A stretch of DNA of 64,000 nucleotides from Neofusicoccum parvum (taxonomy: Eukaryota; Ascomycota; Dothideomycetes; Botryosphaeriales; Botryosphaeriaceae), in contig CP087211.1 of NCBI GenBank assembly GCA_020912385.1, positions 2,170,001 to 2,234,000 on the forward strand, read 5' to 3'. The notes under the pieces were generated by a model that had not been told where the DNA came from, made no database searches, and worked only from the letters and a program-made list of their open reading frames with translations. The position numbers and the translations under genes are program-made. Within the stretch, counting starts at the first letter, position 1. Each line of letters opens with the position of its first letter. Below are positions 31,085 to 56,071 of the stretch, piece by piece.

Positions 31085-33198
31085 GGTGGAGTTTTTGGCG
31101 GTTGGTATTTTCGAGATCTACTCAAGAACGGTGGTTGGTGGAAAGAGTGGAAGGTACGAGATCAACTCGTTGGGTGTAAAAGAATGACTGGAGAACGAAA
31201 GTGTATCCAAAAACGACGACCGGCACAGCGGATGGATGAGAAGAGGGAAAGGAAGCAAAGCGGCAGGCCAAGCCGGTGGGTATATGTACGGATAGTAGGG
31301 GCGTTCGCCTGGCCGCCCCTCCGCATGAACGATTCATCGGCTATACAGCATCTCGCCAAGATGAAACGCGAGCACCGGCAAGCGAATGCCGTTTGAAACA
31401 AGCCTCTTCTCGAGAACCGCTGACGTTTGTGGGAGCGGTGGAACCTGCAAATTTCCGAAGGGGGGAATCGTGGCATCGCTTCGAAACAACTACCGCGACC
31501 CCTGGTTGGCGGGAAAAGTGTGTGCCGCCAATGCCGGGCAAGCGTGGCGCGACGGCCGGCAATGACTTGCATCATCCAATGCGCGCTTGGACGTTGTTTT
31601 CTGCGGATAGCACCACCCCTGCGCAGATCGCGCGCTTCGGTCGCGGATTGATGGATGCTTGCGACGTGGTGAAGCCGGCGAGAATGCGGCTCCTATATCG
31701 TGTAAAGAGCGCTCCGCTGTTTCTGCGGCTGAAATAATTGTCAGGCCAGTATATGGAGTCCGGAGCGTCCCTTTTAGCGTCCGTGGCTCCCGACAAGAAG
31801 GATGCTGTCCGCTTCCTGTCGGATACCCGGATCTCAACGGCATTCTAGGCGTGAGTATCCGCGCACTTATCCCGATAACGTATTCATCTTCATTTGCTTG
31901 CGGTCTGCTCTTGTTGTTCGAGCCCCAGAAGTATCCATCAAGGAAGAGAACCCGCGTTGCTGCTGGGTTCGCTTGCTACTAGACTTCCTGATCATTTGCT
32001 TCCCTAAAATGAAGGTCAGCTTCTCCCTGTTTCCAGCCATTCAATCTCTTCTCTTTTCTGAATTCACCGCTTCATTCTCTTTTCAGTCATCCGCCGGCCA
32101 CAATTGCATGATGCACAACACCCCTGTCTTCCGGCTGTGCCTCACGCCCGCGTGCGCCAATACGAAATGGAGCCCCGGCCAGCTCAGTTATTGGCCTAGC
32201 GCAGCCTTACCGCTCTTGTACTTTACCCACCATTAGCAGCCCTAGATAGATGCTATCTTTCCAGGGTGCCAGAAGACGTCAGTCTAGGCTCGACTTCCCC
32301 GCTCTTGCACGAGCAGTGGGAGCCCTCTGAAGGCTATAGCTTGACACCCCCTCCCAGCAACGTCTTTTCTCCGTCACTCACCGTCACACATTCCTAAACA
32401 GTTCAACCGCATTGCGGTCTCTTGATTTTTCCCTCGCGTCAAATATGCATGGCTTTACCGCGCGGCTGTCGCCAAGCCGTCGTCGCGTCGAATCCACCGA
32501 AGAGTCCAACCCTGGCCCCAGACGCCTTCCGGAGGAAACACCGCGTCAGCAGACCTTGCTCCTTCTGGAACATTGTGGACTCATCCCCCCACGCGCCATT
32601 AAGATTGGGCAACGCTCACTGGATGCCGTCAACACGCCTTGCATAGACACGTCGACGCGCAGTCAGCTGCTCGCGCGGGCCGCATGCACCTGTCTGCTTC
32701 TCTGCCCAACCATCAAGCCGAAAGATTCTTCTCGGTCACATAATAACTCACCGCATTTTAGATCAAGGGTCCAAGTGGTTCTCCTCCTGCAATCATTAGT
32801 CCGGCGTTCGGCCGAATATGCAGTAGTGTTGTAGGAGTTGAGTTCCAGGTGGGTTGCAATGCAGGCGCTGATCACCTTCAAGCCGGGGGAGTATGGTCGC
32901 GATATGCAGATATGGCTCGGTATAACAGGCAGCAGTTGAACATGTTTGCCTTCTTTTCTGATTGCCTTGTCAATCAAGACCTCATTGAGAGATTGAGGTA
33001 GATATCGAGGGTAAGGAGCGGTGTAGAAGTGACACTGAAGATACGTACCTCACGGGCATCTGGTAAGTATAAAGATCTCCTGGGTTGCACTTATCATACA
33101 ACCCTTCAGCGCTCACCACCTGCATCGAATTTTCATTCTCTTGCCAGCTCTATTTGGCCAGCTTGGGGAATCATTTTCTACATCCTTTCCATTGCACT
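31085..33198. other. Intergenic, divergent promoters (GH131 - / small C2HC gene +)
   Basis: No gene recognised in 2.1 kb. A TATA-like element of the downstream small gene lies at 33067-33074. Open frames at 31276-31737 and 32412-32834 overlap opposite-strand frames and have no features. Confidence 0.5.
33067..33074 (+). promoter_or_regulatory. TATA-like element upstream of small C2HC gene 1
   Basis: GTATAAAG lies about 130 nt before the ATG at 33199, with no intervening ATG. Caution: the preceding GGTAAGTAT also resembles a splice donor, so this could instead mark a 5' UTR intron. Confidence 0.4.
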
Positions 33199-33453
33199 AT
33201 GGCGCCCCGCAAGAGTTCTCGGCAGTCGTCCCAACCCAAGAAGGAAGCTCCTGACGCCGGAGAGTGTCGCTTGGAAGCCAAGCGTTGCCCCGTTTGCGGG
33301 GAGTGGATCAATCGTGATGGAGGTCGCCACAAATGTCCCGGAAACCCTGCAGCTATCCGATCCCTTCCCAACTACAAGGAAGAATCCGACACGAGCGAGG
33401 ACGATGACTCCAGCAACGGATCGGACTTTGGCAGCCCTACTCTCGTAGATTGA
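33199..33453 (+). CDS. Small C2HC zinc-binding-like protein, copy 1 (84 aa)
   Basis: Not a family I recognise. A Lys/Ser-rich basic N-terminus precedes CPVCGEWINRDGGRHKC, with putative ligands Cys30, Cys33, His44 and Cys46, then ProGly. The pattern C-x2-C-x2-W-x4-GG-x-H-x-C-P-G recurs exactly in two other short ORFs in this window (42643 and 54760). The C-terminal 25 residues are acidic and Ser-rich (EESDTSEDDDSSNGSDFG). No signal peptide. The first ATG after the TATA-like element is used, and the reading frame ends at TGA 33451-33453. Such a small single finger with charged tails could bind nucleic acid or protein; function is unknown. Two cousins with the same motif but otherwise different sequence are the main evidence that it is coding. 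Confidence 0.65.
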   Translation: MAPRKSSRQSSQPKKEAPDAGECRLEAKRCPVCGEWINRDGGRHKCPGNPAAIRSLPNYKEESDTSEDDDSSNGSDFGSPTLVD

Positions 33454-34657
33454 CTATCCGGCCATCCTGGCCAAATTTGCGGAGGTTTGTAGTTTTGTAG
33501 ATCGAGGATGTGGCCCGAGAAAAACTGACGCCGTACAGCTCTTTTGACCTTCGCAGTGCTCTTTTGGCTTGGGTACCTTTGAATCAGGGGTCGGTTGTTG
33601 CCGTCGTGCACACTCTTTTTTTGCGAGCTGCGGGCTGGCTCTGCCTTTTATCGAGATGCCGTTCATTTGAACATGGGAACCGAAATCGTTGAGTTTCTGA
33701 GATAGAAATTGATCAACCTGTCTCTCCTGAAAGTAAAGTCCGTGGTCTCAAGCGGAATGGCGACAATTCCACGCCAGTGATCGACAAGACCTCGCGGGCT
33801 TTCCCGCTGCCGGAGAGCCCTCTCTTGGGTAACTGTTGCATATCATGTCTGCAAAGGTGCAAGACTCCGGCAATCATGTCCAAAGAAGTGCTAGCAATCT
33901 CCTTGGCGGAAAACACCGCCACCGCTTGCTCTGTCGGACAGCTCAACGCCTTCAGCCTCTCTTGGATCTTCCGCTGATCTGCAGCTTTATAATTCAACTT
34001 GCCTGGATTTCTTAGAGCTTCCGCTGACAAACGGATGGGTAGGATGGTGGTAAGTCTGGCAATTCTCGGGAACATCCGTGGGGGGCCTGTTCTCCACTCC
34101 ACTTCCTTGAAACTGCTGTCCCAACGAGCGTGCAAGCAGACCCAAGTGCTAAAACTCTCAGCGGGAGTCGCATTCCAGACGGACTCTGGCAAACCTGGGG
34201 TATTTGAAGGTCCGGAAGCTCGGCGGGGTCGGCACGATGTGCTCGGGTTTTCTAATGACGAGACATCGAGATCATTTCCGCGCGAGTCATAGCAACGTTG
34301 CGGTCAGCTATACTACGTAGTAGGGAGACAACAATCTGCCCCTCCAAGATTGCCCAAGGCTTGAGGTGCTCGCGCAATACGACCTTTCATTGGCTCTATG
34401 CCGTACGGAGCGTGCCGCTGAGACAATGATCGAAATCGAGAGACCCCCCTGCCCCAGGCTTGGGAGGACTCGAGCCGCCCCACGCGTTCCGACTCACGGT
34501 ACGGTTCGTCATGCAAGGACGATCACGCAGAGGGCTGTTTCCTTATAATAGAAGCGGGCGCCAATCCGGCTCGCGATCCCGCCCGGAGAGTTCTCCTGTT
34601 ACCCTTTCCCTCGTCCACGACTATATATCGCTGCACATATGCGCCCACGGACCCGGG
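33454..34657. other. Intergenic, with one doubtful ORF (33713-34192, -)
   Basis: The 159-aa minus-strand frame at 33713-34192 has protein-like composition (for example KAADQRKIQERLKAL) but no recognised domain, and no cognate exons could be joined. TATA-like sequences at 34541 (TTATAATAG) and 34622 (TATATATCG) precede the next + strand gene. Confidence 0.35.
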
Positions 34658-36550
34658 ATGTTGACGAAACACTCGAAAAGCTTACACCGGAGGCTGTCGC
34701 GCAGATCGGCTTCGACTTCACAAACAACATGCGCTCCGTCGGAGGCGCAACAGCCACGGACGATACCCGTGCGGCCCGGTGAGCTGCGAAAGTCCGTTGC
34801 CGGCGAGAGCGAGACCACTCCTTCCAGTCTCCCCCCGAGGATCCCGACCTTTTGGAAACAAGACAATGCGACGCCGTTGCCTTCCCCGAGTCTTGGTGAC
34901 GGTGGGCAAGGCCTATCGACCGCACGGGGAAGAGACTATGGACTGAGCCTGAATGCTGCACCAATCCGGGAAGGGCAAGTTCTACAGGACGGATCATCAC
35001 AGTATCTGCAGCCACCGAACGCACCTTTCGCAGAAAGCCAGAAGACCCCGGCCGGAGACACCGACGGCAGCCAACGCGAGTATCTGACGCTGCATCTCCC
35101 CACCCCGGACACGCTGCCCACATTTACGGCGCCGGACTGGAGAGAACCCACATCCAAGCGCACCTTCAGCCTCCGGAGCACAATAAGCCACACAAGCTGG
35201 AAAAGCTGGAACAACGATCGGCGCATTGACTCGGCCATAAGTCATCACACTCCGAGTTGTGCACCCAGCGCCGAACGGAGAACATATTCCATGCGCTCTT
35301 TCTCACGCCGGCTGTCTTTCCGGGATAATGGCAGCCAGCGTGCATCCTCAGTTCGTCTGAGCTCTGTACCTCCTGAAAGGGACCAGGAGCAACCAGCAAT
35401 GCCATCACAAGGGATTGGTTCTGCAGAGCACACGCCGCGGGAGGACGTTGATATCTTGTCATTTTTGAAAGACTCCCGCATACCTCAAGAAAGAAACCCA
35501 CCTCCCACGCCGCTAGTCACGCTCTCACACACCGGCGAGGGCAGCAGCCGGTCAAAAAGCATAGCGCTACTCGCAGCAGCCGGCACATCAAAAACATCAC
35601 TAACGCAATACCAACCGCACGAGGACGACTGGGAACGGCCGCTCAAGCCCTCCGACGGCACCGGGCTGGACGAAAAATGCCTCGCCAGCGAGCTCTCGGA
35701 CGAGAAAATGCTGGTCACCGAGCTCTCCGCCTCCTCGCCGCAGCGCGGCCCCGTCCTCACCGAAGACAACCTCCGCACCCTCAGCCACATCACCGCCGCC
35801 GCCACGCCCCCCTCCAAAGACAAAGACCTCCCGTCCCTCCCGCTCCCCGCCTACCCCCCCACCTCCGCCGGCTCCAGCACCCGCTCCTCGCACTCCGCCA
35901 AGAAACCGCACCACCACCACCACCGCCTCTCCCTCGCCCCCCACCACCCCCCAACGACCCCCCACCTCCGCAAACGCTCCTCCACCCTCCTCGCCCTCGT
36001 CACCCGCCCCACCGCCTCCGCCCTCGCCAGCACCGCCTCCACCACGCGTCCCCCCCGCCTCCTCTCCCGCGTCGACACCCTCCTCACCCGCACGCACACG
36101 CGCCGCCGCTCGACGCACCCATCCGGCGGCCCCGCACCCCTCGCCGCGATCGCCGCGCACTGCGGCGGCGACGCGGGCGCGGTGGCGGCGCACGCGCGGG
36201 TGGCGGCGTGGGCGGCGGGGCAGGCGGACGCGGGGCTGGCGGCGTGGTATGCCGAGCAGGGCCGGTACCAGGCGTGGCGGCGGCGGCGGCGGGAGGAGCG
36301 GGTGGCGCGCGAGATGGCGGCGGTGGCGGAGGAGGCGGAGAGGGAGGCGTTCACGCGGGTGAAGCTGGAGGGGTGGTTGGGGGGGACGGTGGGGGTGTGT
36401 TTGGGCGTGGGGCTCGAGGAGGGGGTCGAGTGGCCCGGGGAGGTGTGGGACGGGGAGGGGGGGAGGGGCGCGGGGAGGGAGGGGGAGGCGGAGTTTGAGG
36501 GGTTGAGGCCGGGCAGTGGGGGGAGTGAGGTTTGGGTGGGGGAGATGTGA
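34658..36550 (+). CDS. Hypothetical long disordered protein, about 630 aa
   Basis: Not recognised. The frame is open from 34460, but I take ATG 34658 (MLTKHSKSLHRRLSRRSAST), just after two TATA-like stretches. An in-frame ATG at 34511 is an alternative. The first 500 residues are Ser/Thr/Pro/Arg-rich and probably disordered, with basic-Ser segments (TYSMRSFSRRLSFRDN) resembling kinase-site clusters, and a KKPHHHHHRLSL tract. After about residue 500 the text changes to an Ala-rich helical stretch (AAHARVAAWAAGQADAGLAA) with WYAEQGRYQAWRRRRREERV, possibly a coiled coil, then a Gly/Glu-rich end. The DNA switches from C-rich to G-rich at about 36170. Overlapping long antisense frames are compositional shadows. 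Confidence 0.6.
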   Translation: MLTKHSKSLHRRLSRRSASTSQTTCAPSEAQQPRTIPVRPGELRKSVAGESETTPSSLPPRIPTFWKQDNATPLPSPSLGDGGQGLSTARGRDYGLSLNAAPIREGQVLQDGSSQYLQPPNAPFAESQKTPAGDTDGSQREYLTLHLPTPDTLPTFTAPDWREPTSKRTFSLRSTISHTSWKSWNNDRRIDSAISHHTPSCAPSAERRTYSMRSFSRRLSFRDNGSQRASSVRLSSVPPERDQEQPAMPSQGIGSAEHTPREDVDILSFLKDSRIPQERNPPPTPLVTLSHTGEGSSRSKSIALLAAAGTSKTSLTQYQPHEDDWERPLKPSDGTGLDEKCLASELSDEKMLVTELSASSPQRGPVLTEDNLRTLSHITAAATPPSKDKDLPSLPLPAYPPTSAGSSTRSSHSAKKPHHHHHRLSLAPHHPPTTPHLRKRSSTLLALVTRPTASALASTASTTRPPRLLSRVDTLLTRTHTRRRSTHPSGGPAPLAAIAAHCGGDAGAVAAHARVAAWAAGQADAGLAAWYAEQGRYQAWRRRRREERVAREMAAVAEEAEREAFTRVKLEGWLGGTVGVCLGVGLEEGVEWPGEVWDGEGGRGAGREGEAEFEGLRPGSGGSEVWVGEM

Positions 36551-36698
36551 TTGTGGGGATGGGATGGGATGGATGGTGCGGCTGGCGATGATATACCCCC
36601 CGTTGGAGTAGGAAATGGGCGCGCTTTTGTTGGCGCAGTCCGTCGGCTTTGAGGATCGTTTTTCTGAGAAGAGCAGGCAAGAGCCGAATAAAACTTCT
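36551..36698. other. Short convergent spacer
   Basis: Converging 3' ends of the disordered-protein gene (+) and the first HET gene (-). Confidence 0.4.
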
Positions 36699-38739
36699 TT
36701 AGATGATCTTTACAGTGTGTGTTCCGCTGCCTTCAAATAGGTCCGTGTGACTCAAATCCTCTTGAACAATTCCAATTCGCCAATACTCGTTCGGGGATCC
36801 GGTTTCCAGGAGGACAAGAGCAACCCGCCATCGAAGAGCATCTGTCAAGCCATCCACCTGCCAAGAGCCGCGCGCCCCGAGCGCCAACAGCCAGACACCG
36901 TCTTTCCAGGTATATGATTGAACTGATGCTTCCTCGTCGAATTCAGAATCCTCGAAATCCAAGAAGACTGTGTCTTTGACAAATCTCGTAGGTGGCCGAC
37001 ACATCCTTCCGCTCAGCACAATGTGACCGCCAAGCACCGGACCGAAAGGATCTGGAAAAGCGAGTTGCGTTTCTGCGTGCTCAATGTGGCACTCTGGCTT
37101 CAGCCCCTTTAGCCCCCAATAGACTCTCAGTTTCCGTGAAGCCCAGGACCAAGACGGTGCTACATAGCAGTTTGTGTCCGTTGAAGACGGCCTTGACATG
37201 GTGATATCTTTCAGGTCTGGTTTTGTCGTTTTCAGTGGAGCGTTGCCGATTATCTGCCATGCCAAACCGTTGATCAGATCGTATCTCCAAATCCCAGCCA
37301 GGTAGTCTCCGGGAACTGCGGCGTGCACTGGTGCGAATTTCCGAGCCAAAGCGGATATTGCAGGCAATCTATCTCGAGGAAAACTCAAGAGTCTTTGGGA
37401 ATAGTTGAATATGACTTCACTCCAGTCGTCGTGATTGGGGGAAAATTCAAAATCCACTGATTTGATTTTCTCCGGGTGTCCAAGCAAGGTGTCGAGATTC
37501 ATGAACCCGAGATGCACGAGATCCTCTCCGAAGATAAGCGGCCGGGGAGAGAGGAGGCCTTCTTGGAATGTCCATGCCCTCCGAGACCAACCTGTTTTGT
37601 CGAAATCAAGGATTTCTTGTTGCCTCTTTGGCGGTTTCCGGTACCGAAAATAGAAAGATCCAGGCTTGGCCGTCTCTGAGAAGTGAGAGAAAAATTTTAT
37701 TTCTGCTCCCGGGAGCCGCTGCAGCCTCAAAATACCGCTGTTGCATGAGTCTCCTTTGGTGGCACAAAATGTTAAAAAAGCGTTCTCGTAGACCGTGGCC
37801 ATTCTAGACGCTTCGTATTCCCAATCAACAGGATCGTCCTGTATAATGCAGACGGAGTCAATCCAGATATATCGCACTCCAAGTTGCCTGGTGAGAAGAA
37901 TTGCGTCCCGAAGTGTTTGAGGGAAGTCATGAAGCGGTATATTTTCTTTCATCTTTTGAAGAGAACTTATTGTTAACTTCAAAAAGTAAGAGGCTTTTAC
38001 CGGTCCCCAACAGTAGCTGAGTGCAATGTACTTTCTTTGCTTGAGATTTGACGGCGTCGACGTGCAGAAAGGCATGTGATCGGCAGAAATTATGAGGCGA
38101 GGTTGGCGTCTCCCATGCTTCCCACCAACATCTATCAACCTCGTGGGAAGGTCAAGTACTTGATTTTGAGGCTTCCGAACCAGAACCTCCTCGATCAAAT
38201 GCTTCAGATCATACATAGACGTAGCAGAAAGGATATTTTGCGACGACCCAGGAGGCATCTGGAGCATCTTTGCGCACCATCCTTTGAAAGCATTAACACT
38301 GCGACCCGAGGATTGACTGCTTTTCAGTGGAAATACCTATTTCAGTTTCGATTCTCAGACTGAAAGATCGCTTTGTTTCTTCGTATCGGCCTGGATTTCG
38401 TGGGTACGTCAGGTCCACCCAGAGCTCCCTGAAATATGGTCTGTCATGCCTGGTGGCTTTCAATCTGAGAGGGCCGATGATCACTTTGTATGAGCTCACC
38501 TCCCAAAGACCATGGTTCGGGATTGCGATCTTTAGGAGGCGGCAGAGCTCACAGCCAGAGGCAGCTGATGCCGACAGAGTAGGGAGGTCATCCAGTATGT
38601 CTTCTTTTTTGAAGTGTAGCAAATAGCTGTCATTTTCAGATATCGTGAGGGTTGTGCTGCGCTTCATCAATTCTGCGATCTCGATCTCTACTATCTGGCA
38701 ATCACCGCATAACTGCTGGCCTGAAGTCTGACTCGGCAT
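36699..38739 (-). CDS. HET-domain (heterokaryon incompatibility) protein 1, 661 aa
   Basis: Exons 38739-38337 and 38281-36699 join in phase across a 55-nt intron (donor GTATTT at 38336; acceptor AAAG), giving ETEIGWCAKMLQMPPG. The N-terminal part carries a CxxC (LCGDC) and CELCRLLK, the usual lead of this family. Then come PTRLIDVG, the HET core YIALSYCWG, LPQTLRD-type text (FPQTLRDAILLTRQLGVRYI) and WIDSVCIIQDDPVDWEYEAS, ending in ATVYENAFLTFCATKG. Downstream RAWTFQEGLLSPRPLIF and PSWSWASRKL are standard HET C-terminal landmarks. HET proteins trigger cell death when incompatible alleles or partners meet in a heterokaryon. Full motif order and length suggest an intact gene. The second HET gene lies 5 kb downstream. 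Confidence 0.93.
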
Positions 38740-39245
38740 CTTGGAGTGAGGTGTGAATATAGCTTGCTGGCAGAAGGACGATGACTCGGCGATGACGTGA
38801 AGGGGTGGTTAAATGAAAAATAAGGTTGAGATTAGCCATACTTTAAGAATCGAACGCAACCACATGTTCCTGTCTCATTGGACAGCCGCGATCCTCGCTT
38901 ATCGCCGAAGGTTACCCATCATCAGGCCGCAACAAACAATCGAATTGATGTAATCATTGTGCTTCGAAGAGCTGTCTTCCCAGTCGAAGAGGGGCTGCTC
39001 CTCCGATTGCAGCCATGACGCAATGGGTTGGCCCAAGCGCAGTCTCAGCCATGCTGGAGTAGCGTGTGACGGTGGCAACCTCCATTGCTCCAGCAGTTGA
39101 AAGCTGGTGATCTCAAGTAGGACGGTAATAGGTCTGCGGTGATGGATCGGGGCAGACAAAGACAGGAGAGCGAGGTATATAGAGAGATGGGTATCATAAG
39201 CACCGGGCGAAGCCAGCAAAGCACTCCGCCCAAACTCCACCCCTC
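38740..39245. other. Intergenic, HET-1 promoter / arrestin 3' end
   Basis: No gene is recognised; both neighbours are transcribed from the minus strand. Confidence 0.45.
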
Positions 39246-40475
39246 CTACGGCCGATACGGCGGCGGTTCATACGGCGGCGGCTCCTCCCCCTCCCTCTCC
39301 TCGCCCAGCCCCAGCACCTCCCCACTCTCCACCACCGGCAACACCTCCACCGCATGCCTCGCCGCCAGCACCTCGAACACCTTCCCCGCACACTGCACCC
39401 ACAGCACCACCTCCAGCTCATACGCCCGCGCCAACCCATAACTCCTAAACCCCGGCACCACCTCCCGCGGCACGACCAGCGCGCCGCCCTCGCCCAGCCG
39501 CACCGGCCGCGCCCCCAGCGGCGCCGCCGCGCCCGCCCGCCGCACCGCCCACGCGCGCTCGGCCGCGCCGTCCGCCAGCTCGCGCGCCGCGTTGTGGCGG
39601 TACGGCACGCGCACGCGGGTGCGCGCGGTCAGGGTGGCGCGGTAGCCGCGCAGGGCGACGGGCGGCGGGGCGGGGAGGGAGGCGCTGCGTTGCTGGTGCG
39701 CGAGCGCGACGGTCAGGGGGACGGCGTGGCCGGCGCGGAGGGAGGCGGGTGTGGTGGTCGTGAGGGCGAAGGTGGCGGTGGGGGGAGGGGTGCGCGCGAG
39801 GAGCTGCTTGAGGCGGGTGAGGAGATGGGGGCGGCGGCGGGTGGTGGGGAGGGCGAGGCGGTGGTGGCGGCGGGTGAGGGAGATGGTGGTGGTGATGGGG
39901 GAGGGGGGCGGAGGGCCCAGGGGTGGGTGGGGTGGGCTGAAGGTGAGGGGTTGGCGGACGCGGCGCGAGGGGTTGACGAGGGAGGTGGTGGTGAGGATGG
40001 CTTCGAGGTGGTAGGAGATGGCCTGGTTGTAGCCTTTGCATTTGGTGCGCATGGAGGGCGGCAGGGCGTGGCCGCGGAGGTGCTCGAAGTCGTCGCTGCG
40101 CTTGAATGACTCGCCCTCGTAGAGCGGCGGCGGGGTGCTGACCACCCAGGGGAAGCGGAACTCGAACGGGAAGGAGACGTGCGTGTGGTTGTGGTCGGCG
40201 AGGGATTCGATGTCGTCGCCGGAGAAGGAGAACAGCTCGGAGGTAAGCTCGAAGAGGTCGACTGAGGCGCGGTCGACGAACTGGTTGGCGCCGCCGGCCA
40301 CGGCCATCTTGGAGGTCGCTTTGAAGTGGATGACGAGTCTTGAGGCCTTTTGCTTTCGTTCGACCTGGACTTCGCCGCGCACTGTGTCTCCGCACGTGTA
40401 GATGCGGCGTGTGTCGGCGTGGGGGTCGAGCCGGATTCGCAGTGGCCCATGATGGAGATTTTCTCGGCCAGCCAT
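39246..40475 (-). CDS. Alpha-arrestin (ART-type ubiquitin-ligase adaptor), 409 aa
   Basis: Single exon. The arrestin-like N-terminal domain is visible at residues 10-150: PLRIRLDPHADTRRIYTCGD, VRGEVQVE, SRLVIHFKATSKM, FPFEFRFPWV and the LPPSM box preceding YHLEAIL. A C-terminal arrestin fold follows (AVPLTVAL; REVVPGFRSYGLARAYELEV). The last residues are PPPYEPPPYRP, two overlapping-register PPxY motifs that bind WW domains of Nedd4/Rsp5-type ligases such as HulA. Such adaptors direct ubiquitination and endocytosis of permeases at the plasma membrane, and an NCS1 permease lies 11 kb away, though linkage proves nothing. The middle (about 180-270) is Pro/Thr/Arg-rich low complexity in C-rich DNA, changing to G-rich at about 39600. 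Start ATG 40475 yields MAGRENLHHG. Confidence 0.88.
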   Translation of the reverse strand: MAGRENLHHGPLRIRLDPHADTRRIYTCGDTVRGEVQVERKQKASRLVIHFKATSKMAVAGGANQFVDRASVDLFELTSELFSFSGDDIESLADHNHTHVSFPFEFRFPWVVSTPPPLYEGESFKRSDDFEHLRGHALPPSMRTKCKGYNQAISYHLEAILTTTSLVNPSRRVRQPLTFSPPHPPLGPPPPSPITTTISLTRRHHRLALPTTRRRPHLLTRLKQLLARTPPPTATFALTTTTPASLRAGHAVPLTVALAHQQRSASLPAPPPVALRGYRATLTARTRVRVPYRHNAARELADGAAERAWAVRRAGAAAPLGARPVRLGEGGALVVPREVVPGFRSYGLARAYELEVVLWVQCAGKVFEVLAARHAVEVLPVVESGEVLGLGEEREGEEPPPYEPPPYRP

Positions 40476-42642
40476 GGCTCGAAGAGGGGGGCCTCTGACC
40501 GCAGAGCTCGTTTCTGCTGACTGAGGCGAGGCTATCGATGATGGGCGGTGCAGGAGGCAAATGTCGAGGCGAATGAGAGTTGGAAGAGCAGCAGAATGGC
40601 GGACATGGTGCAGAAAGGGCGGCGGAAGTCGGAGATGCTGCGCAAAGCCGACTTATGTAGCGGCATGTGCGTGCTGCAGCCCTGGAGATTGATGCCTGAG
40701 CCTATTAATAGCGGTTACACGGGGTGTCTGGGCGAGTCTGGACGGCGGCCGGGCTGCTGGCGTGGCGGGCGTGCTCTTCTGCAACGAAGCCACCGACTGA
40801 GTGCTGCATGGGGTCACAGGATCGGTATTTCGCGGCACCCCTGCGGGCAGCACAGTGGCGTTGATGCGCATAGTTGCGCGCTCGGCGCGTGAGAGTGAGG
40901 CTGCCCGGGTTTGGCTTGCGGGAGGCGCAGCTCGCGTATTGCGCCAGCCAGGGGGCTGCCGGCTTTCCGCCACGCTCGTGTCATTCAGCCCTCAGCTGGC
41001 CGAGATGAAGGAGATCTCGCTGGAGTCATTGAGATTGCACATCCAGCCCTTATGGTCGCTCGGGCTCCAACATCTACTGCGTAGTATAGGTGGATACGGA
41101 TTGGCTATTCGGAACTGAGCACAGCAGGATGCTTACAACGCACTTGTATATCTTCACTCCATGCAGAGTTGCGATTACACGACCTTACGATTAGGGCAGA
41201 TGTGCTGGACTTCACGCCGAAAATCGGCAACGAGCAAGACATCGTGGTCGCTGACAGAAGTGGGACCGCCACCACCGCCACAGTCACCGCCCGAGGACGC
41301 GCTCTTCTCAGCGCGTCAACTGCACGCGACCAGGCGCGGGGCAGACGCGTATAAGCGTATGGCCAAGACCCGTCCAGGGCATCCCGTGCAGCCAGCGATA
41401 CATCCATACTTCGGTGACCTCATAGCATGCAGGCTCGTCGGTGTGCGAAGGGATGCCCTGACTCTTGCGCGCAATCTATGTATGCATTGGGGTGCGTCAT
41501 CAACGCGTCTCTGCGGAGTTGACGAAAACACAGAGTCAGTTTCGGAGCGAGACCAACGCACTTCTATCACACACATAAACGGGCGCCGACCGGAGCTGAA
41601 CCCGCGTTCGTGCCTCCTTCGAGGAAATCATATGCATGTGCCTCTTCTCTCTGAGCCAGCGTCATTTTGCTGTGCCTGAGACCCGCATGCCCCGCCGGGA
41701 AATCCGGCCCTCGCTGCTCAGATACTGCTTATCCGGCCAGCAATCGGTCCTTCTGTACTGCATCTGCAGCCTGCGCGGACTTTACTATGTTTTGTTCCTG
41801 CACCAGCCTTGCGCTGGCCGCCGCTTCTGAGCTGCCTTGCCACCTGCGAATGAGATGCTCGATCAGATCAATGCTTCACTTAAGTATCCAGCTCGAAGAG
41901 CAACGACAGACCTCTCCAACAGCCGAAAGTAAATCTTGTAACTTGTAAGCTGGATACCCGGACCTTTGGAACCAGCTCGGCTCCTCAGACATTTTGCAGC
42001 CCCCGTCTGCCAATGGTGCCCGGCTGGCGGACTTGATTGTGGGATTTCCGACCCCCACGGCACTGCGCGTTCACCGCACATTCGCGCCGCCTCGAGATCA
42101 GCTGTTCACGCGAACCACTCCCAGCCTTATCGACCAACCAGGGCGCTGGAAGCACGGGCCAGCGACATGTTCTGATGCAAAGAAACCTATTCAGCTGGCA
42201 ACCCCGCTTCCATTGCTCTTTTGGTCCAGTCGTGCCATAACCCCAATGGCCAGATTTTATGCCAATGCCTGTGAACATGAGCCCATTTCTCCAGGCACTA
42301 TTTTTGACCTCGTCAGGCAGCTGCACCGCGTACCGGAAATGGAAATTCGTAGCAACGGCACCATTTCGGTTTCGTTGGATTTCCTCTCCCGTGCAATCTT
42401 TCGGAGAACAACCGGGAGGCAGACAAGGCAGAATATAAGACAAGTAGCGGTGTGCTGCATCAACGTGTGCATGCCGGCAATTCACATGACGCGTTCCAGT
42501 GCCAGGCGGAGGGTATAAAAGCCCTGTCATCTTCAGCTCCATATATGCTGAGGCAACTCACACTCTCTCTTCAGAAAGCAGAGTTGCTCTTGGCCACCAC
42601 ACAGCCCTTATTTGCCACTCTCTTGTCGCCGACTATCCTGTC
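40476..42642. other. 2.2-kb intergenic region before C2HC copy 2
   Basis: Contains the arrestin promoter on the left. An imperfectly placed inverted repeat (GTATCCAGCT at 41884-41893, AGCTGGATAC at 41948-41957) and the TATA element of the small gene at 42514-42521 are the only structures seen. Open frames of up to 185 aa lie on both strands without features. Confidence 0.45.
42514..42521 (+). promoter_or_regulatory. TATA box upstream of small C2HC gene 2
   Basis: TATAAAAG in context GGAGGGTATAAAAGCC, 129 nt before ATG 42643. This distance nearly equals that in copy 1 (131 nt). Confidence 0.55.
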
Positions 42643-42744
42643 ATGTATTGCTGCAGGATCAAGCGTTGCTCGGTCTGCAACAAGTGGATCAAGCGATGGG
42701 GCGGAGTTCACCACTGTCCTGGACATCATCACCGAATCTTTTAG
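42643..42744 (+). CDS. Small C2HC zinc-binding-like protein, copy 2 (33 aa from first in-frame ATG)
   Basis: The frame contains CSVCNKWIKRWGGVHHC followed by ProGly, with ligands Cys9, Cys12, His23 and Cys25 if ATG 42643 is used, and the same spacing as copies 1 and 3. The frame is open upstream to about 42499 without an ATG, so the protein is either 33 aa or starts from a non-ATG codon or a spliced exon I cannot see. The first ATG after the TATA box (42545) opens a different frame of 76 codons that overlaps this one. At only 30 nt from the TATA it may lie upstream of the transcription start. Tail is HHHRIF. It could be a truncated relic; the conserved motif argues for purifying selection at least until recently. 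Confidence 0.5.
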   Translation: MYCCRIKRCSVCNKWIKRWGGVHHCPGHHHRIF

Positions 42745-43817
42745 CTTTCCAATACTGGCTCATTTAGTCATATGATACCTGCAGCGGTAAGTTGCGAAAC
42801 ACTACTTCGTGTAATTTGAATTGCGCTGACATTGATCAGAAGCATCCCTTCTTCATTCACTTACCACAATCCGAAAACGGACCTCATACTGGCTTTTGAA
42901 ATTCTGTTAGGTTTGATGTTGCGTCGGAGTCATACCGTCTCTCTAGAACAGGAGTCAGTAACCAGATACTTGAGAATTAAAAAAAAGGGAGTAGAGACAT
43001 GAGTTCAAATTATGCATTTTTGGGCCGGCCTCTTAGCTAGAAAATCCTTTACCAATCACCAAAATTCATCACTCGTTTCCAAACTGCTACATTGCTTTTC
43101 TTTGTCTGCGCCACGTGAAGCGACTTGCCCTCATCACTCGTCTGATGTTGCTTCACTCTTTCACACAGTTTGGAGAACTATTTATTGCTATGTTGCTTTG
43201 AAATATTTTAATCAACCTGAAGTGTTCAAGGTAGCTCATCAAAAATCATCAATTACCTTGAACATTTCGTGATTGAGAGCATCTTTCCGGTGGGGTTTCC
43301 CGGGATGGAAAATAAGTGTGAACAGAGGATGAAAACTGGAACAGCGACGCTAAGCTTTGAGAGCAGATTTTACGACTGGCCCTCCGAGGCTCCGACCGCT
43401 AAAGTCTGCCTGGAGTTGTGAGTACGGCCAGTAAGCGCGTTTGATGTTTGAACCGTGCTTACCCGCAGACACTTACTACCAATCAATAGCGAACCAGCTG
43501 TGGAAGCTGAACCAACCCCACTAATCTATGACTGCCTATATAAGCAAACTGTTTACTTGGCACGTCCTTTCCGCCAAAAAACCTCTCTGTATTGCCATTT
43601 CTTATGTGACTCACTATGAAGCTACGAAGGTTCCAAGGAAACTGCGATTTAAAGTTTAATCTAGCTATATTGTAAATATCTTTATCATCACGCTCTGTAC
43701 GTCTATCAAAGTTTCCGAAACAGTCAATTCTTCGACTTAGTCTTCTCACATTTAATAGTTTGTGTTGTATCATGAATGATCCTTACTATGCGTAGAACGG
43801 TGTTTAGAAAAATAAAT
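42745..43817. other. AT-rich intergenic region
   Basis: The spacer is AT-rich, without coding signal. A perfect 11-bp inverted repeat (TGTTCAAGGTA 43223-43233 and TACCTTGAACA 43254-43264) could form a hairpin with a 20-nt loop. A TATA-like CTATATAAGC occurs at about 43535, with no convincing gene after it. Confidence 0.5.
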
Positions 43818-46076
43818 TTACACAATGGTGATTGTGTAAAGGTACTTGCTGAGATGATCTTTCCCTTGAGCCCCAAATCGCGGGTCAATATGCCGCTCTT
43901 CGTAATCTCCGCTGTCCGGGCCGTGTACTTTATGGACGAGCAATTGCTCATCTACTTGCTGGAGAATGTGATGCATCGAGGGTCGCAAGTCGCAGTCTGT
44001 CAGGACGAGCGATGGTGAGATGTCTTCCTGTAACTCAACCCAAATCTTCTTCATCGAAAATGTGCCGATGCGCTGGAACTGCCCAGGACTGTTTGGCACT
44101 TTTGCTAGGATCATGCCACGCAACAGTACCTCTGCCTTCCCTTTGGAAGATTCCGCCGGGTGCTCTTCGAATCTGTATGCTCCCTGGATTACCGGCATGA
44201 GGAATACACTAGCTTTCGAGTAGTTGTCCAAAGCCTTCTGCCCGGAGGCTGTAGGCAACGAGGTTGCTTCATCGTATGAGAACGTGCCATTTTCTCCTTG
44301 AAAGCCGTTGGGGTGAGTGGATGGAGATGTGTTTGCGTAACCATTCCTCTCTTGTTCGTTTAATCTCCAGAGCCAGCATCGGATTCGGAGGTGGCCTGCC
44401 TTTACCTGCAAGTACGTGTCATCGCTCACAGGGGACACGTCGTAGTCGACAATCTCAACAAGCACGTTCTTTTCAGCGCCTTCACGGCACCTGGGGGGCA
44501 TGACATGGTAATCAGTGGACGCCCACGACCAAGAAGGCGCTCTGTAGACCTCCGGGCGACCGCACTCCGGCCGCCTTGCCTCATCGCCGACCCAGAACGC
44601 GCTCCACAGAAGCTGCTGCGCCAAGCACCGCGACCAGAGCCCGGCGAGATACTCGACGCGCGGCGGCGCTGCGCGGCGGAGCCGCTCCCCCACCTCCTTC
44701 GCGATGCCCGAGAAAGCGGGCAGCTTGTCTTCCTTCCTCGTGAACCCGGCCTGCGCGTACAGGACGACCAGGTCCGACCAGTAGAACATCAAGTCGTTGA
44801 ACGGCGTGCCCGAGGTCTGCGGCACCGTCTTCGGCAGGTGGCCGACGACCGCTCGCTCGGGCTCGTCCAGCGCTGGGGAGGCTTCGGACGCGATGCCGCG
44901 CTGGCACTCCCAGAAGATCATGGTCCGTCCGAAGTGCAGGACGCGGGTTGCGAGGAACCACTCTTGGATCACCCATCCTCTGGAGTATAACGGCTGGTCG
45001 TATCGCCCGAGGTGTTCCGTGCAGTGGGGACCAACCACCAAGTAGTCCTCTGGGGGCGATCTGGCGGAAATCGAGCGCACGGTCATTGTTCCGAAGAAGG
45101 CGGGGTCCTTTTGGGAGAAGCAGCCTTCTGACCCGTCTTTTGCGGCTGCGGCGGCGATGTTGCAGAGACCGTTCTTGTACACCAGACCCATCACAGAGCA
45201 CTCTTTCAGCCAGTCCTCCACCGAATCCTGTATTATGCAGAGGGAGTCGATCCAAAGATACCGGTAGCCCAGAGAGTGTACGGTGTGCACGGCATCTTGG
45301 TAGGTTTTTGGCAAGGACGACATGGGGATACCAGTGCGGAATTGCGCGAGACAGGCGCCGGTGAGTTTGAGAGTTAGAAACGATCCCCAGCAATGGCTCA
45401 GCGTGATGTACCGTGATCCCCGGGGAATTTCGTCTCGAAGGCACAGACGGATCTCGCCCGCAGTCGCAAACGAACCAATGTCGATGAGACGTGTTGGGAC
45501 CCAATCAGAGCTCGATGCCTCTATACATGTAGAATGATGTGATGTGCACTTAGTAAGCCACTGTTGTGCCTGCGCCAGCGATATTTCAGAGCCCGTGCTT
45601 GCGCTCTCTGAGAGCGGATTCTTTGGAGGCACATCATCTTCTCGGTCAGTGAGCTCCCACTGCTACAACGTTCGCATATGACAGAGAGACATACCTTTCT
45701 TCATGCGGCGCATGTGAAACTCAGAAATGTCCGTGTCTCCTTGAGAAAAGAAAACAAACCAGGTGCCGACGGGAACCCTGGGTGCGCTCATCCTCCATCT
45801 GAGGAGCTGCGCATCTTTCGCGATTGTCGGGTCTTGCACCCTCTCCAGCAAACTGGGAGGCAGACCTCCCAAAACAATGCCGCAAAACTTGCACCCGTCA
45901 ATGGCGGATTGCTTGAGGACTGGAAGGCTCTCATGATGGTCTCCATCATATCTCCGAGAGCTGTCGTTGAGGCGAACTTTGAAAAAGATGCCCTCACATT
46001 TTGGGCAAAGTTTGTGGGAGGAAAAGGCCTGGTGATTCGGATCCTCGGAAGCCAAAGCGAACGGCGTGTCAACCAT
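43818..46076 (-). CDS. HET-domain protein 2, 734 aa
   Basis: Exons 46076-45695 and 45640-43818 join in frame (RRMKKEDDVPPKNPLSES) across a 54-nt intron with a CTGAC branch site. The N-terminal part has KLCPKCEGIFFKVR and DGCKFCGIVL, paired cysteines typical before HET domains. Core: WVPTRLIDIGSF, YITLSHCWGSF, LPKTYQDAVHTVHSLGYRYL, WIDSLCIIQDSVEDWLKECS, then GLVYKNGLCNIAAAAAKDG. Later landmarks are GRYDQPLYSRGWVIQEW, ATRVLHFG, FWECQRGIASE and APSWSWAST. It seems intact. It is not a close duplicate of HET 1 (different linkers and C-terminus), so the two probably have separate partners. Expected role: death reaction on non-self fusion. Confidence 0.93.
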
Positions 46077-46737
46077 CGCGGTTCAGCTTTTCAGCCTTAC
46101 GACCTGGCCGAACTGGACGCTACAGCAATTCTGCAAGGGATTTTGTCCTCTACCGCTCGTTTTGCGTGCCACGTCAGCCTTGTCAAGTGAAGCCAATGAT
46201 TGGACTACGGCGGCGGAAAACCATGGAGGCTAAACTCCAGGGTTCTCTAGGCAACCGCGCGGACTTTTGCGCAATTGGGGGTCAAAGTGGACAGCAAATG
46301 GTGACGTCATGGATGGGGACTAAAACTGATCAACGCGAGTCAGGGACACCGCGTGGCGCAGTGCGGCTTTCATATTGAACTGAACTGGTCAAAATTACAC
46401 AGTGAATGAATTCTCATATCTAACAAATCCTCGCTTTTCGTTCTGTAAAGTCGAAAAGAATTCTGCTTGCAATCGAGGCATCATCATAATCGTCTCAAGC
46501 GTTCCACCTATGTCATCTGTCGTATATCATTCCACACCAACATTCTTTGTACACGTTCCTCAATTTACCTTCGCCTTTTCGCCACCCATCGTCATCGGGG
46601 ATAGGGGTCGTCGTTTTTACAACTTGGGGTGCACGGGGAGTTCAGAGGACGACGACACCGCGCTGGAAAACCCAAAGAGTCAGAAGATTGATGGCATTAA
46701 AAAAAAGAACAGCAGCTCATGAAGCAAAGGAATCTAT
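46077..46737. other. Intergenic between HET-2 start and katG stop
   Basis: Contains the HET-2 promoter and the katG 3' UTR. No gene recognised. Confidence 0.45.
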
Positions 46738-51225
<4,488 letters not shown>

Positions 51226-52899
51226 ATGGCAGACAGGATTCGACGACGTATTCCTTCCAGAGAGACGGTCCGGCAAAGGCTGACCTCTGTCAAAGCGTGG
51301 GAACTCGAGGTCGAGCCGAGCTCCCTGGCTCCCAGAGGCGCCTTCTCCAACGCCGACACGGATCCAACGCCAAAAGAGAAGCAGACATGGAAGGCTTACA
51401 CACTCATCTTCTACTGGTTCTCCGACATCCTCACCATTCAGGGATGGGAGTCAATGGCAACCATCATTAAAATCGGGCTCACATACAAGGAAGCCATCTG
51501 GTGCACTCTCCTCGGAGACTTCCTCATCGCCATCCCCGTCGTGCTCAACGGCCACATCGGCACACGCCTGCGCGTGCCCTTTCCCATCCAAGCGCGGAGC
51601 AGCTTCGGGTTCCACGCGGCCAAAGGCGTGGTGTGCATCCGCATCGCCACCGCGCTCTTCTGGCACGCTCTCCAAACCTACAGCGGCTCGCAGGTCATGG
51701 CGCAGGTTCTCACAGCCATCTGGCCATCGTTCGGACGGATGCCCAACCACATCCCCGCCTCGCAGGACATCGACTCCAAGACGCTGGTGGCCCACCTGCT
51801 CTTCTGGCTGCTGCAGCTCCCCTTCGTCCTCATCCCACCCCACAAGATGACCTGGTTCTTCTACACCAAAGCCGCGCTCATGATCGCCACCTCCCTCGGC
51901 ATCGTCGGCTACCTCGTCCACCGCGCCGGCACCTCCGGCGAGATCTTCAACCAGCGCCCCACCGTCGACGGGAGCGAACGCGCCTGGCTAACCGTCTACA
52001 TGCTCTTCCAGACCGTGTGCGGATGGGCGACCATGGCGACCAACATCGCCGACGTGTCGCGGTACGTCAAGTCGCCACGGCACCAGATCGTGCAAGCCGC
52101 CAGCCTTCCCCTCGTCGGGCTCTACATCGGCGCGATGGGCATGCTCGCCTGCAGCGCCAGCCGCGTCGTCTACGGCGCCTTCATCTGGTCGCCCGCCGAG
52201 CTCTTCACGCACTGGCAAGCCACGCGCGCCGGCCGCGCCGCCGTCGTCTTCGCAGGCCTCTCCTTCTGCCTCGCGCAGATCGGCATCAACATGTCCGCCA
52301 ACATCGTGTCGCTGTCCAACGACCTCGCCGGCCTCTTCCCACGCCACCTCAACATCCGCCGCGGCGCGCTGCTCGGCACGCTCGCCGGCGGCTGGGTCAT
52401 GGTGCCGTGGAAGATCTCGGGGTCCGCGCCGCAGCTGGTGACGTTCGTGTCCGCGCTCGCCATCTTCCTGGCGCCCATCGCGGCCATCCTGATCGCCGAC
52501 TACTTCGTCGTCAAGCGCCGCGCCGTCGACGTCCCGGCGCTGTACGACCCGCGCGGCCGCTACGCCTACTGGCGCGGCACGAACCCCCGGGCCGTCGCCG
52601 CGCTGCTCGTCGCCGTGGCGCCGAACCTGCCCGGCTTGGCCCACGACGTCAGTCCTGGCTTGCGCATCGGCGGCGCCGTGTATATCTACTATCTGAACTA
52701 CGCGGTCGGGTTCGGCGTCGCCGCGGCCGTGTATGTGGCGCTCAACGTCGTGTTTCCGGCGCGCGAGAGCCTGGTGCCGCGGACGGTGTACGCGTACGAC
52801 GACGCGTCGGCGGAGGAGGGGGGAGAGGGGTCGGGCGGGGAAGAGCGAGGGGAAAAGGGGGCGAGCGAGGTGCGGACGAGGCCCGATGTGCTGCCGTGA
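51226..52899 (+). CDS. NCS1-family permease (allantoin/uracil/purine-related, Fur type), 557 aa
   Basis: A single-exon plasma-membrane transporter of nucleobases or related compounds. Start ATG 51226 gives MADRIRRRIPSRETV, a basic cytosolic lead. The NCS1 signature follows: WKAYTLIFYWFSDILTIQGW, then SSFGFHAAKGVVCIRI (the conserved RSSFG helix), QMV-like SGSQVMAQVLTAIW, MTWFFYTKAALMIATSLGIV, ATNIADVSRYVKSPR (the TM8 N-x-D-x-S-R-Y element), and GINMSANIVSLSNDLAGLFP with NIRRGAL. About 12 hydrophobic segments are visible. The RYAYWRGTNPRAV box near the end is typical of Fur proteins. The hydrophilic tail (about 40 aa) is Glu/Gly-rich and encoded by suddenly G-rich DNA from about 52730. Substrate (allantoin, uracil, uridine, thiamine) cannot be decided. 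Confidence 0.92.
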   Translation: MADRIRRRIPSRETVRQRLTSVKAWELEVEPSSLAPRGAFSNADTDPTPKEKQTWKAYTLIFYWFSDILTIQGWESMATIIKIGLTYKEAIWCTLLGDFLIAIPVVLNGHIGTRLRVPFPIQARSSFGFHAAKGVVCIRIATALFWHALQTYSGSQVMAQVLTAIWPSFGRMPNHIPASQDIDSKTLVAHLLFWLLQLPFVLIPPHKMTWFFYTKAALMIATSLGIVGYLVHRAGTSGEIFNQRPTVDGSERAWLTVYMLFQTVCGWATMATNIADVSRYVKSPRHQIVQAASLPLVGLYIGAMGMLACSASRVVYGAFIWSPAELFTHWQATRAGRAAVVFAGLSFCLAQIGINMSANIVSLSNDLAGLFPRHLNIRRGALLGTLAGGWVMVPWKISGSAPQLVTFVSALAIFLAPIAAILIADYFVVKRRAVDVPALYDPRGRYAYWRGTNPRAVAALLVAVAPNLPGLAHDVSPGLRIGGAVYIYYLNYAVGFGVAAAVYVALNVVFPARESLVPRTVYAYDDASAEEGGEGSGGEERGEKGASEVRTRPDVLP

Positions 52900-54759
52900 A
52901 TCAGTTCTCTGGAGCTGAGGAGGAGGGGATGTGTTGTGAGGGGTTTCTGAGCGGGCGACTTCTGAACGCGAGCTGGCTCTTGGGTGTTGTTTTCTGCCTG
53001 CTGGGCCGGTAGCCGAAAAGTAAACAAACAAATAAAGGTGAATATAGAAGAAGGAAGAAAGGGAAAGAAAGAGCAGGGACCATTAAGTCGACAAAGATAG
53101 GAATTCTAGGACTTCGCCCTCTTCGCCCTTGCGAACTCTGGCGGATTTCCCTGTTCCATTGACAAGGTGGTCATCGGCTGCCCGGCACTGCCACGGTCGG
53201 TGCCTGCTGAGCTGGGCCTCGCCCCAAAAGCTACCACACCACTTGTGCAGCCAAAATAACACGGCCAATGGGAACTGTGTTTCATTACCTTGCCGGTCGT
53301 TTTTGGGGGCTGCGGTGCTGAGTCTGCCTTGCAGCCTAGCTGTTTCCGTAAACTGAAACAGCGCCCACGCCGCACCAGCCTCGGCGCGTAAATAGAAGCT
53401 GCAGTCGGGCGTTAAATACAGCGGGAAACATGGTCATAATGATGACAATCACTCGCCTTCAATTACAGCCTCAGGTCAATACCTCAGTCGCGCACGTTCT
53501 GGCTTATTCCTCGATCCAGGCCCGCACGCAACGCCATTGTTCGCGTCGAAAACCACCTTGTCACATCGAGATTCATCTACACCCATTGGCAGTGTCTATT
53601 AGCACTGCCTTGAGAAATTGATAGGGGCGATGGGCGGCCGGCCTGCCTCGAGATGAATGGCTCGGCTCAGTGTGAAGCGTGAACCTGCGTCGCGCATGAT
53701 TCCCCAGCACCTGAGTATTTGGTTCTCCGTCTCTCGCCTGTGCGGCCTTCAAGTCAGAGCAAGCTAAAGAACTCCCGTAGAAGAGCATCTAGGCATATTC
53801 GAGGCCCTACGCGTTCAGTAATTGGAACGGAGACGGCGAAGTGCCAACGCAGACAGCCACATTGACGTCCGTGCAGCAGTACACCTCGTGTTGACATGAG
53901 CATGCTGGAAATCTGACCGGGGTCATTTCTTCCCGCGTCATACTGGACAGTAGAGAGCGAACCGGAGAAGGTGGCGGCCTCGAGGAGAAACAGCACGACC
54001 TTGGCCGACCGCCGATCGCAGGCAATACACGACCACGCAGCCTCTGCCTTGCCAGGGACAGATCGATCCGTCATCTCGGTTGCGCTTACTCCTATACTTT
54101 GCAGAACTACTTTATTCCTTCGGATGCGCCTACCCCCGTTCCGCAGGCGAGGCCGAGAGTTCAGGGCCTAGTAGGACTAGGGCGTATAACGGGCTAGGAA
54201 GGAAGGGATTTTCTTCTCAAGAATCGGACTTGAGCAAGATCGCTGGGCCCATGATTCATCCTATACTTTCACTGACACCTGGATAGGTTGACGGTGCTCC
54301 CTTCACCATACGCCCGAGTTTCAAAGCCCTGGGTGTGGAGCACAAGCCTGGCCGTGTGGGCCTCCTTGTGTTGTGCTGCCACGGCAACACGCCCTCAAGC
54401 CCTCAGACTCTCCTCATCCGTGAACCAAAATGCCGCCCGTGCGTAGTCATCAGGACATCCTGAGATCCAATCAGGGTACCCTTCGTATCGATAGCCGTCC
54501 GCCGAAGAAAGTTCTGGAGGGGTATAAAACCGTGAGTTCTCACCGTTACCTCTGATCAACCTTCACAGATCAACCCTCCTTTCTACTTCCTCCTCCAGCC
54601 TACGCAAAGGAAGGCATTGTTCATCAAACTCCATCCCGCCTCCCACGCATCAGCACGCGGGCCTACCTCGCTCCGTCCCACCTTCGACGCGTCCCCGCAC
54701 GTGCCCTCCACCCTCAACCCTACCATCTCGACGCGTCACCTGCTTCTCCATCCTCCACG
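52900..54759. other. Intergenic before C2HC copy 3
   Basis: The only structure assigned is the TATA element at 54523-54530. Short frames occur without features. Confidence 0.45.
54523..54530 (+). promoter_or_regulatory. TATA box upstream of small C2HC gene 3
   Basis: TATAAAAC in context GGAGGGGTATAAAACCG, 237 nt before the ATG at 54760; no ATG intervenes. The flank GGAGGGGTATAAAA resembles that of copy 2 (GGAGGGTATAAAA). Confidence 0.55.
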
Positions 54760-54915
54760 ATGCAACGCGAACTCGACCAACTCCTCCTCGACAACCTCGT
54801 CACCATCTTGTCCAATATCAGACGGTGGGTGGCGAGATGCACTGTGTGCGACAATTGGATGCCGATGAGAGGAGGACAGCACATCTGTCCCGGGCCTAGC
54901 CGCTCGATCTCGTAG
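54760..54915 (+). CDS. Small C2HC zinc-binding-like protein, copy 3 (51 aa)
   Basis: Too short for most gene callers. The protein starts MQRELDQLLLDNLVTILSNI, an amphipathic Leu-rich helix, followed by CTVCDNWMPMRGGQHIC and ProGly (ligands Cys27, Cys30, His41, Cys43; conserved Trp33 and GlyGly 38-39), and ends PSRSIS. The motif spacing equals that in copies 1 (33199) and 2 (42643). It uses the first ATG after a good TATA box (54523). The helical N-terminus differs from the basic one in copy 1, so only the finger is shared. Function unknown; a Leu-rich helix plus a finger could mediate dimerisation. Confidence 0.6.
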   Translation: MQRELDQLLLDNLVTILSNIRRWVARCTVCDNWMPMRGGQHICPGPSRSIS

Positions 54916-55535
54916 GAGCATGCAGTCCTTCAAAAGGCGCGTGTTCCGTCAAACATACATGACTACATCTTCATGGGAGGACTCTATGAGGGCAGGGCAT
55001 CCCGGCTGGATCCAGGAACAACATGCACGACATGGAGACTCTCGCTGGCCGCTACGCTGAGAAACAAAGGTTGCAAGAAAGGCTGACACTATAAAAATTG
55101 GAGGAGCATGGAGGGCTTGTAAAGTGCTGGACGCTTTAGCTTGTGTGTTTATAGCACAACGCGAGTTCCAGAGAAAAGTGTGCACATGTTTGGACATTTA
55201 TGGCACCGTTTTCTAGATTGGATTTCCATCGATGCCGAACACTAAAGCTCGTAAAGAGTCTCTTTATTTCGTGTGTAGGGTGAGCCGACCGGTTTTCCAT
55301 TTCTGCACTGGCTTAGTAAGCTCTACACTCCTGTCATTATGGTAAGGTTTTTTGTATCTCTTACGTTTAGCACAATTAAATCCTACAAATATAAAGCGGA
55401 GTTTATTGGAGTGGCTATAACTTTTAGGATCTTGACGGGAGGAAAACTACCCTCGTAAGCATTCATCAGCATAGCCGTGAGGAAATTTACAGAGCTTTCT
55501 ATACCAAACTTGTAGAGCTTATTGCGCTCTACCAA
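54916..55535. other. AT-leaning intergenic region
   Basis: No gene recognised. The sequence becomes AT-rich from about 55190 to 55560, as is common for decayed DNA in fungi. Confidence 0.45.
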
Positions 55536-56071
55536 ATGAGCCAAGTTTGGTTATTTTGCGACCGTTTATTTGGGTATAAACTTAAGGCGCCGCTGAAGGG
55601 AACCCTGAAATATAAGGGTTCCGTGGATCGTGGTCCCACGGATTCTCTGCAGACTAGATTTTGGTACCGGGAGGATTTGCCGGAAAAGTTTGCGAACAAA
55701 TTTTTCAGAACAGAACTTAAAGAAGAGCGTGAAAGCAGCACTCATTGTACCAAATTACCTGGCAGGACACAACGTGCACCAGATATTTGGCCCACCCGGA
55801 CGACAAGGGCTTCGGCCATCTTTGCGACGTCCGCAACGGAATCGTGATGCACAAGTCACTGGAAAAGGCTTTTGACCTCGGCCGGGTCGCCATTGTTCCT
55901 GCCGGCGTCGTCAATTCCAGCAACTCTGATCCAGAAGAGAAACCCAGCAATCTTGTAGTTGTCATCCTGGACGACGAAATTAGGACCATGGATATTTTCC
56001 CCGGAATGCCGTTTGAAGCTATCGACGGTAGACGCCTCCAGTTAAGTTCAAGCACGCAGACCACCGCCTAA
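55536..56071 (+). pseudogene. Relic of a fungal HNH-nuclease-domain protein (HNH_2-like)
   Basis: The frame containing KAALIVPNYLAGHNVHQIFG (about 55728-55790) and the frame giving DDKGFGHLCDVRNGIVMHKS then LEKAFDLGRVAIVP (about 55800-55895) together resemble the fungal HNH_2 domain, in which an A-H-I-V-P box is followed by R-N-G and H-K-x-L-E-K-A-F-D. A one-base shift near 55795 separates the two halves. The position of the first conserved His is Leu here (ALIVP), so nuclease activity is doubtful even if the shift is an error. The C-terminal part (NLVVVILDDEIRTMDIF) continues the domain. Upstream text from 55536 has no recognised feature. Family call is by remembered consensus. Confidence 0.6.
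55599..55641. repeat. Two adjoining perfect hairpins
   Basis: GGAACCCT (55599-55606) pairs with AGGGTTCC (55615-55622) around an 8-nt loop. CCGTGG (55621-55626) pairs with CCACGG (55636-55641) around a 9-nt loop. They lie just upstream of the HNH relic. Confidence 0.5.

Follow-up and report, generated by a model that had tools for sequence, protein, structure and literature searches.

A 64,000-nucleotide stretch of the Neofusicoccum parvum genome (contig CP087211.1, positions 2,170,001 to 2,234,000, hereafter the window; 56% GC) contains three very short ORFs that specify the same arrangement of three cysteines and one histidine. The question raised by this locus is whether these ORFs are genes of one family and, if so, what kind of protein they would encode and how they relate to the HET genes found next to two of them.

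A signature shared by three short ORFs

The three ORFs, named A, B and C, have been translated again, and the positions, plus-strand orientation and lengths given in a preceding sequence-only reading of the window were reproduced. The ORFs and their core motifs, all read from the translations, are the following:

33199..33453, + strand: finger ORF A, 84 aa, with a basic N-terminal tail (pI 10.0), the finger and an acidic C-terminal tail (pI 4.1)
33286..33342, + strand: core motif of A, CPVCGEWINRDGGRHKCPG
42643..42744, + strand: finger ORF B, 33 aa, nearly the finger alone (pI 9.8)
42667..42723, + strand: core motif of B, CSVCNKWIKRWGGVHHCPG
54760..54915, + strand: finger ORF C, 51 aa, with a Leu-rich N-terminal stretch followed by the finger (pI 8.7)
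54838..54894, + strand: core motif of C, CTVCDNWMPMRGGQHICPG

As first described, the signature C-x2-C-x2-W-x4-GG-x-H-x-C-P-G is present in all three translations, in register and with the same spacing. The Arg right before the first Cys and the Val two residues after it are also invariant, as is an Ile located five residues after the last Gly, which lies beyond the signature initially proposed. The tails, which had been considered unrelated, indeed share nothing detectable: among window ORFs of at least 30 aa, no protein match other than the finger links the three loci at E 1e-3. At the ORF level, A, B and C can be classified as single-finger microproteins (84, 33 and 51 aa with one motif each), this designation referring to a kind of protein and not to a homology family.

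The strict signature matched three times in the six frames of the window, always in A, B or C. GG-x-H-x-C-P-G was also written as a DNA pattern of 23 places and run against the entire genome, which comprises 43,992,428 bases and 18 contigs. It matched three times on the forward strand and never on the reverse strand, again only in the three ORFs; the reversed control of this pattern gave one forward and no reverse match. The pattern search that had been suggested as a check, when run genome-wide with this half of the signature, hence recovered A, B and C but yielded no further copy. The broader pattern for C-x2-C-x2-W alone was far too unspecific (1730 forward and 1768 reverse matches, with 1039 and 999 for its reversed control). 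Genome searches at the protein level, for which each ORF and also a consensus core served as queries, returned the same three loci plus two weak rows (C15, E 0.07; C7, E 3.2), interrupted in each case by an in-frame stop. Both were translated and discarded as extra members, the motif occurring in neither. A fourth, decayed member was sought in the window by comparing a profile with its 1732 six-frame ORFs of at least 20 aa, and was likewise rejected (next best E 0.036, in an alignment without C-x2-C and H-x-C).

Codon-level conservation and upstream sequences

We have compared the 19 codons of the core, nine coding for the motif residues and ten for the others. The motif codons differ at 3 (A-B), 2 (A-C) and 3 (B-C) of 27 bases, all in third positions, whereas the ten remaining codons differ at 17, 21 and 18 of 30 bases, respectively, a contrast that is partly built in, the motif having been picked for being conserved. 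The non-motif values are near saturation, unrelated sequence being 75% different. When the divergence of neutral pairs was simulated, the nine residues were retained at a frequency of 0.008 at 20% divergence, of 0.0001 at 35%, and in none of 40,000 simulations at 50%. It is on the contrast between motif and non-motif codons that we base the argument for conservation, rather than on a pooled Fisher test of codon-position differences over the whole core (p 2e-4), which is biased by the selection of the motif on protein identity and by the dependence among pairs; taken pair by pair, the same test gave p values of 0.018, 0.021 and 0.092. The codon-usage score was mildly favourable for A and C, with 46 and 35 of the 346 scored window ORFs scoring as high, and unremarkable for B (188/346).

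Judged from these comparisons, the best reading is that the finger has been under purifying selection and that the tails were free to change. The description of the family as fast-evolving applies to the tails and to the residues between those of the motif, but not to the finger, whose motif codons are conserved. The codons of the four putative ligands (TGC, TGC, CAC and TGT) are the same in A, B and C, which fits common descent. Since the non-motif core codons are nearly saturated, the duplication that gave rise to the three ORFs must be old.

The DNA around the three ORFs was then inspected for signals of transcription, with the following features:

33068..33073, + strand: TATAAA of A, 131 bp before the A ATG
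42514..42519, + strand: TATAAA of B, GGGTATAAAAG, 129 bp before the B ATG
42545-42775, + strand: out-of-frame 76-aa ORF overlapping B, its ATG 31 bp after the B TATA box
42787..42839, + strand: predicted intron-like stretch of 53 bp (match to a GTAAGT ... CTGAC ... CAG pattern)
54523..54528, + strand: TATAAA of C, GGGTATAAAAC, 237 bp before the C ATG

A TATA box thus precedes each of the three ORFs. The plus strand of the window contains eight TATAAA in total, and the probability of finding one within 240 bp of a random plus-strand position is 0.029; in a control set of 12 ORFs, the true starts of which are uncertain, none had a TATAAA within 400 bp of the start. In A and C, the ATG of the finger ORF is the first one downstream of the TATA box. 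In the case of B, the overlapping 76-aa frame could be a leader ORF, or its ATG could lie right at the transcript start. The intron-like stretch near B begins 43 bp past the stop codon, in the presumed 3' UTR. The three upstream regions have no 8-base word in common, and the only two 7-base words they share both overlap the TATA box, a result reached in 11 of 500 shuffles. No convincing similarity was seen when 2 kb of DNA to either side of the ORFs was compared (best matches of 19-22 bp, E 0.18). Three further TATAAA are present on the plus strand just past C, at 55090, 55390 and 55575; a 103-aa ORF that begins at 55536, downstream of the TATAAA at 55390, has neither the motif nor a significant Pfam match.

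These data also bear on whether A, B and C might be no more than the last exons or the relics of larger proteins, members of a family whose other parts would have decayed or be spliced in from upstream. Such an origin would be compatible with the lack of stops immediately before the ATGs (the open frames span 126, 84 and 119 codons from stop to stop for A, B and C, respectively) and with two intron-like stretches before C (54171-54286 and 54439-54568, both pattern matches), and the search tools that we have used do not model introns. However, every ORF has a TATA box of its own, followed in A and C by the finger ATG as the first one, and the finger is the sole protein match between the loci. 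Moreover, relics would not be expected to retain nine residues with the intervening codons nearly saturated. We therefore regard the larger-protein origin as unlikely.

HET neighbours of the finger ORFs

A, B and C lie within 22 kb, and the genes between them (two HET genes, a peroxidase-domain protein and a permease) are all unrelated. The neighbouring features considered here are listed below:

10240-13145, + strand: overlapping pair of ORFs that match NACHT/NPHP3_N (E 1.1e-27) and ankyrin repeats (E 5.4e-44)
34460-36550, + strand: 696-aa ORF located between A and HET1, overlapping GC-rich repeats in part
36699..38267, - strand: HET1, HET domain PF06985 (Pfam, E 8.5e-33)
43818..45632, - strand: HET2, HET domain PF06985 (Pfam, E 6.6e-28)

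The ORFs at 10240-13145 are predicted to encode an NLR-like protein, situated in the same window as the HET genes. The 696-aa ORF had no Pfam match up to E 0.1, and no tRNA was detected when the window was scanned for them.

The sequence-only reading had placed the small ORFs among HET genes. Two HET ORFs do adjoin them, but the notion of a specific link did not hold, HET genes being abundant genome-wide. When used as a query against the genome, HET2 gave at least 89 match rows, some genes accounting for several of them (73 of 166 candidates scored). HET1 appeared far down among the HET2 genome matches listed and is not one of its nearest relatives. The possibility that finger and HET were copied together as a recent unit was accordingly rejected, HET1 not being close to HET2 and the loci sharing the finger only.

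We have considered whether A, B and C could be functional parts of HET allorecognition genes, acting as partner or trigger of HET1 and HET2. The distance between A and HET1 is about 3.2 kb and that between B and HET2 about 1.1 kb, in both pairs with the finger on the plus strand and the HET gene on the minus strand, and the NACHT-ankyrin protein is also found in the window. Yet, this pairing is inconsistent, as C has no HET gene beside it among the 40 window ORFs scanned with Pfam, a scan in which no HET domain was found beyond HET1 and HET2. The three ORFs themselves have no HET or NACHT domain according to Pfam. In addition to the abundance of HET genes and the distance between HET1 and HET2, the intact GG-x-H-x-C-P-G pattern is confined to A, B and C, which means that no other HET gene of this genome has such a neighbour. 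A role in allorecognition is therefore improbable. Because HET genes are so abundant, these neighbours look unspecific, and the HET neighbourhood looks like background, as judged from one genome.

Finally, chance or convergence among non-coding ORFs might be invoked on the grounds that short ORFs are frequent (the window has 346 that start with ATG and encode 30-100 aa) and that the codon score of B is ordinary, but it is close to refuted and is no serious explanation: base composition predicts 5.3e-8 occurrences of the complete nine-residue signature per window (3.6e-5 per genome) versus three observed, the probability that three random places fall within 21.6 kb of 44 Mb is about 7e-7, and A, B and C use identical ligand codons. 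The triple match is as improbable by chance as had been supposed.

Searches for relatives and known zinc modules

Family databases returned no relatives of A, B and C. There was no match above the curated cut-off in Pfam (best E 0.046), none above the cut-off in NCBIfam (best E 0.15) and no significant match in PHROGs (best E 0.2). In a set of 5.8 billion proteins, A gave zero candidates and an alignment query gave a single one, short of E 10, in a search that needs three shared five-residue words and a similar length and that would miss the finger in longer or diverged proteins. This set does contain fungal proteins, since HET2 had 4299 relatives in it at E 1e-10, with many fungal names among the 120 listed. 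Three of these 120 are labelled N. parvum, and a protein with this label has 98% identity to HET2 over 76% of the HET2 length. Two of the three carry the name PC9H_000022, which is also found on a Pleurotus ostreatus row, and the third carries BOTSDO, which we take to be a Botryosphaeria tag; the names of these HET2 relatives have probably been copied across annotations.

The literature, of which part was covered, yielded no published description of the C-x2-C-x10-H-x-C spacing or motif. The earlier statement that no such family has been described consequently stands for Pfam, NCBIfam, PHROGs, the PDB and the protein set, and for the covered part of the literature.

Viral and prokaryotic sources of the finger were tried and discarded. 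Among viral sequences, 54 stretches fitted a pattern and none was confirmed; among prokaryotic ones, 94 fitted and six were confirmed, all with a PolC-like half motif. The six are Clostridia records in which RCPVCGEW agrees with the first half of A at every position, within a frame of 1253-1502 aa that is presumably PolC. The bacterial PolC zinc site shares this first-half motif with A but is without the GG-x-H-x-C-P-G half, and is hence a look-alike and not a relative. The match to collagen IV in a PDB profile search with A1 (E 1e-13) was dismissed as well, the whole-chain score being a sum of repeated R-C-x-V-C matches of at most 10.7 bits each (three alignments).

Overall, A, B and C are likely to be a real, small and local gene family, and the proposal of one finger module joined to unrelated tails agrees with the conserved motif codons, the near saturation between them and the TATA boxes in 3/3 loci. 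As to what the family is, the reading that we favour, with a probability of about 0.5, is that the three ORFs are separately transcribed genes that arose through ancient local duplication of a single ancestor, and that they encode single-metal microproteins with a partner-binding finger, the action of which is set by the tail. The four conserved candidate ligands, lying within 17 residues, could hold one zinc ion. The fold of each microprotein would be held by this single metal ion, most likely zinc, with C-x2-C and H-x-C as predicted ligands, and the Trp and the two Gly may form a turn and a common contact surface. The finger would bind one kind of partner, either nucleic acid or protein; a module surface that meets one partner fits the conservation of Trp, GG and C-P-G and the free exchange elsewhere. 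The differing tails would determine the place and the companions of action: the basic/acidic tail pair of A would suit the nucleus, B might act as a bare finger, and the Leu-rich stretch of C could be helical and mediate pairing with a further protein.

More tentatively, the three ORFs may represent an unrecognised class of fungal one-finger microproteins with their own ligand spacing, in which nine residues have long been kept by strong selection and their surroundings replaced, and which would work as regulators with interchangeable tails. A class of this type would escape notice in other genomes, ORFs of such length tending to be discarded in annotation.

If transcribed, A, B and C are very small fungal zinc-finger genes that illustrate how a single fold-holding module can outlive the replacement of the remaining protein, and they hint at a gene class that annotation may miss, none having been detected in the protein set searched. 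The family being small and localised, the removal of A, B and C together is feasible and would render their function testable.

Of the known zinc modules, the CCHC zinc knuckle (PF00098) is likewise a short Cys/His module that combines three Cys with a single His, arranged as C, C, H, C. Its spacing is C-x2-C-x4-H-x4-C; that of A, B and C is C-x2-C-x10-H-x-C instead, and PF00098 is absent from their Pfam matches up to E 10. The first half of the motif, with C-x-V-C, would form a hairpin that resembles the CPxCG knuckle of treble clefs and zinc ribbons. Both AlphaFold models obtained (mean pLDDT of 59 and 62) contain a small hairpin around C-x2-C-x2-W, predicted with low confidence, and a Foldseek search with a low-confidence model gave 12 matches, none of them convincing (best E 6.2). 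In the treble clef, two of the ligands are supplied by the start of a helix (PMC4999995), whereas no helix is predicted after the knuckle in our models, which are poor.

Closest in kind among the systems considered is the set of micro-proteins of Haloferax volcanii, whose genome encodes 43 one-domain zinc finger proteins of up to 70 aa (PMC6562870). These are archaeal and have C(P)XCG motifs, two per protein, whereas A, B and C are fungal and end in H-x-C-P-G. The two groups are likened in kind: in both, the proteins are very small and consist of little beyond one zinc module. In H. volcanii, 12 of 16 deletion mutants showed a condition-dependent phenotype (PMC6562870). By analogy with these phenotypes, the most likely role of A, B and C would be that of a condition-dependent adaptor or regulator.
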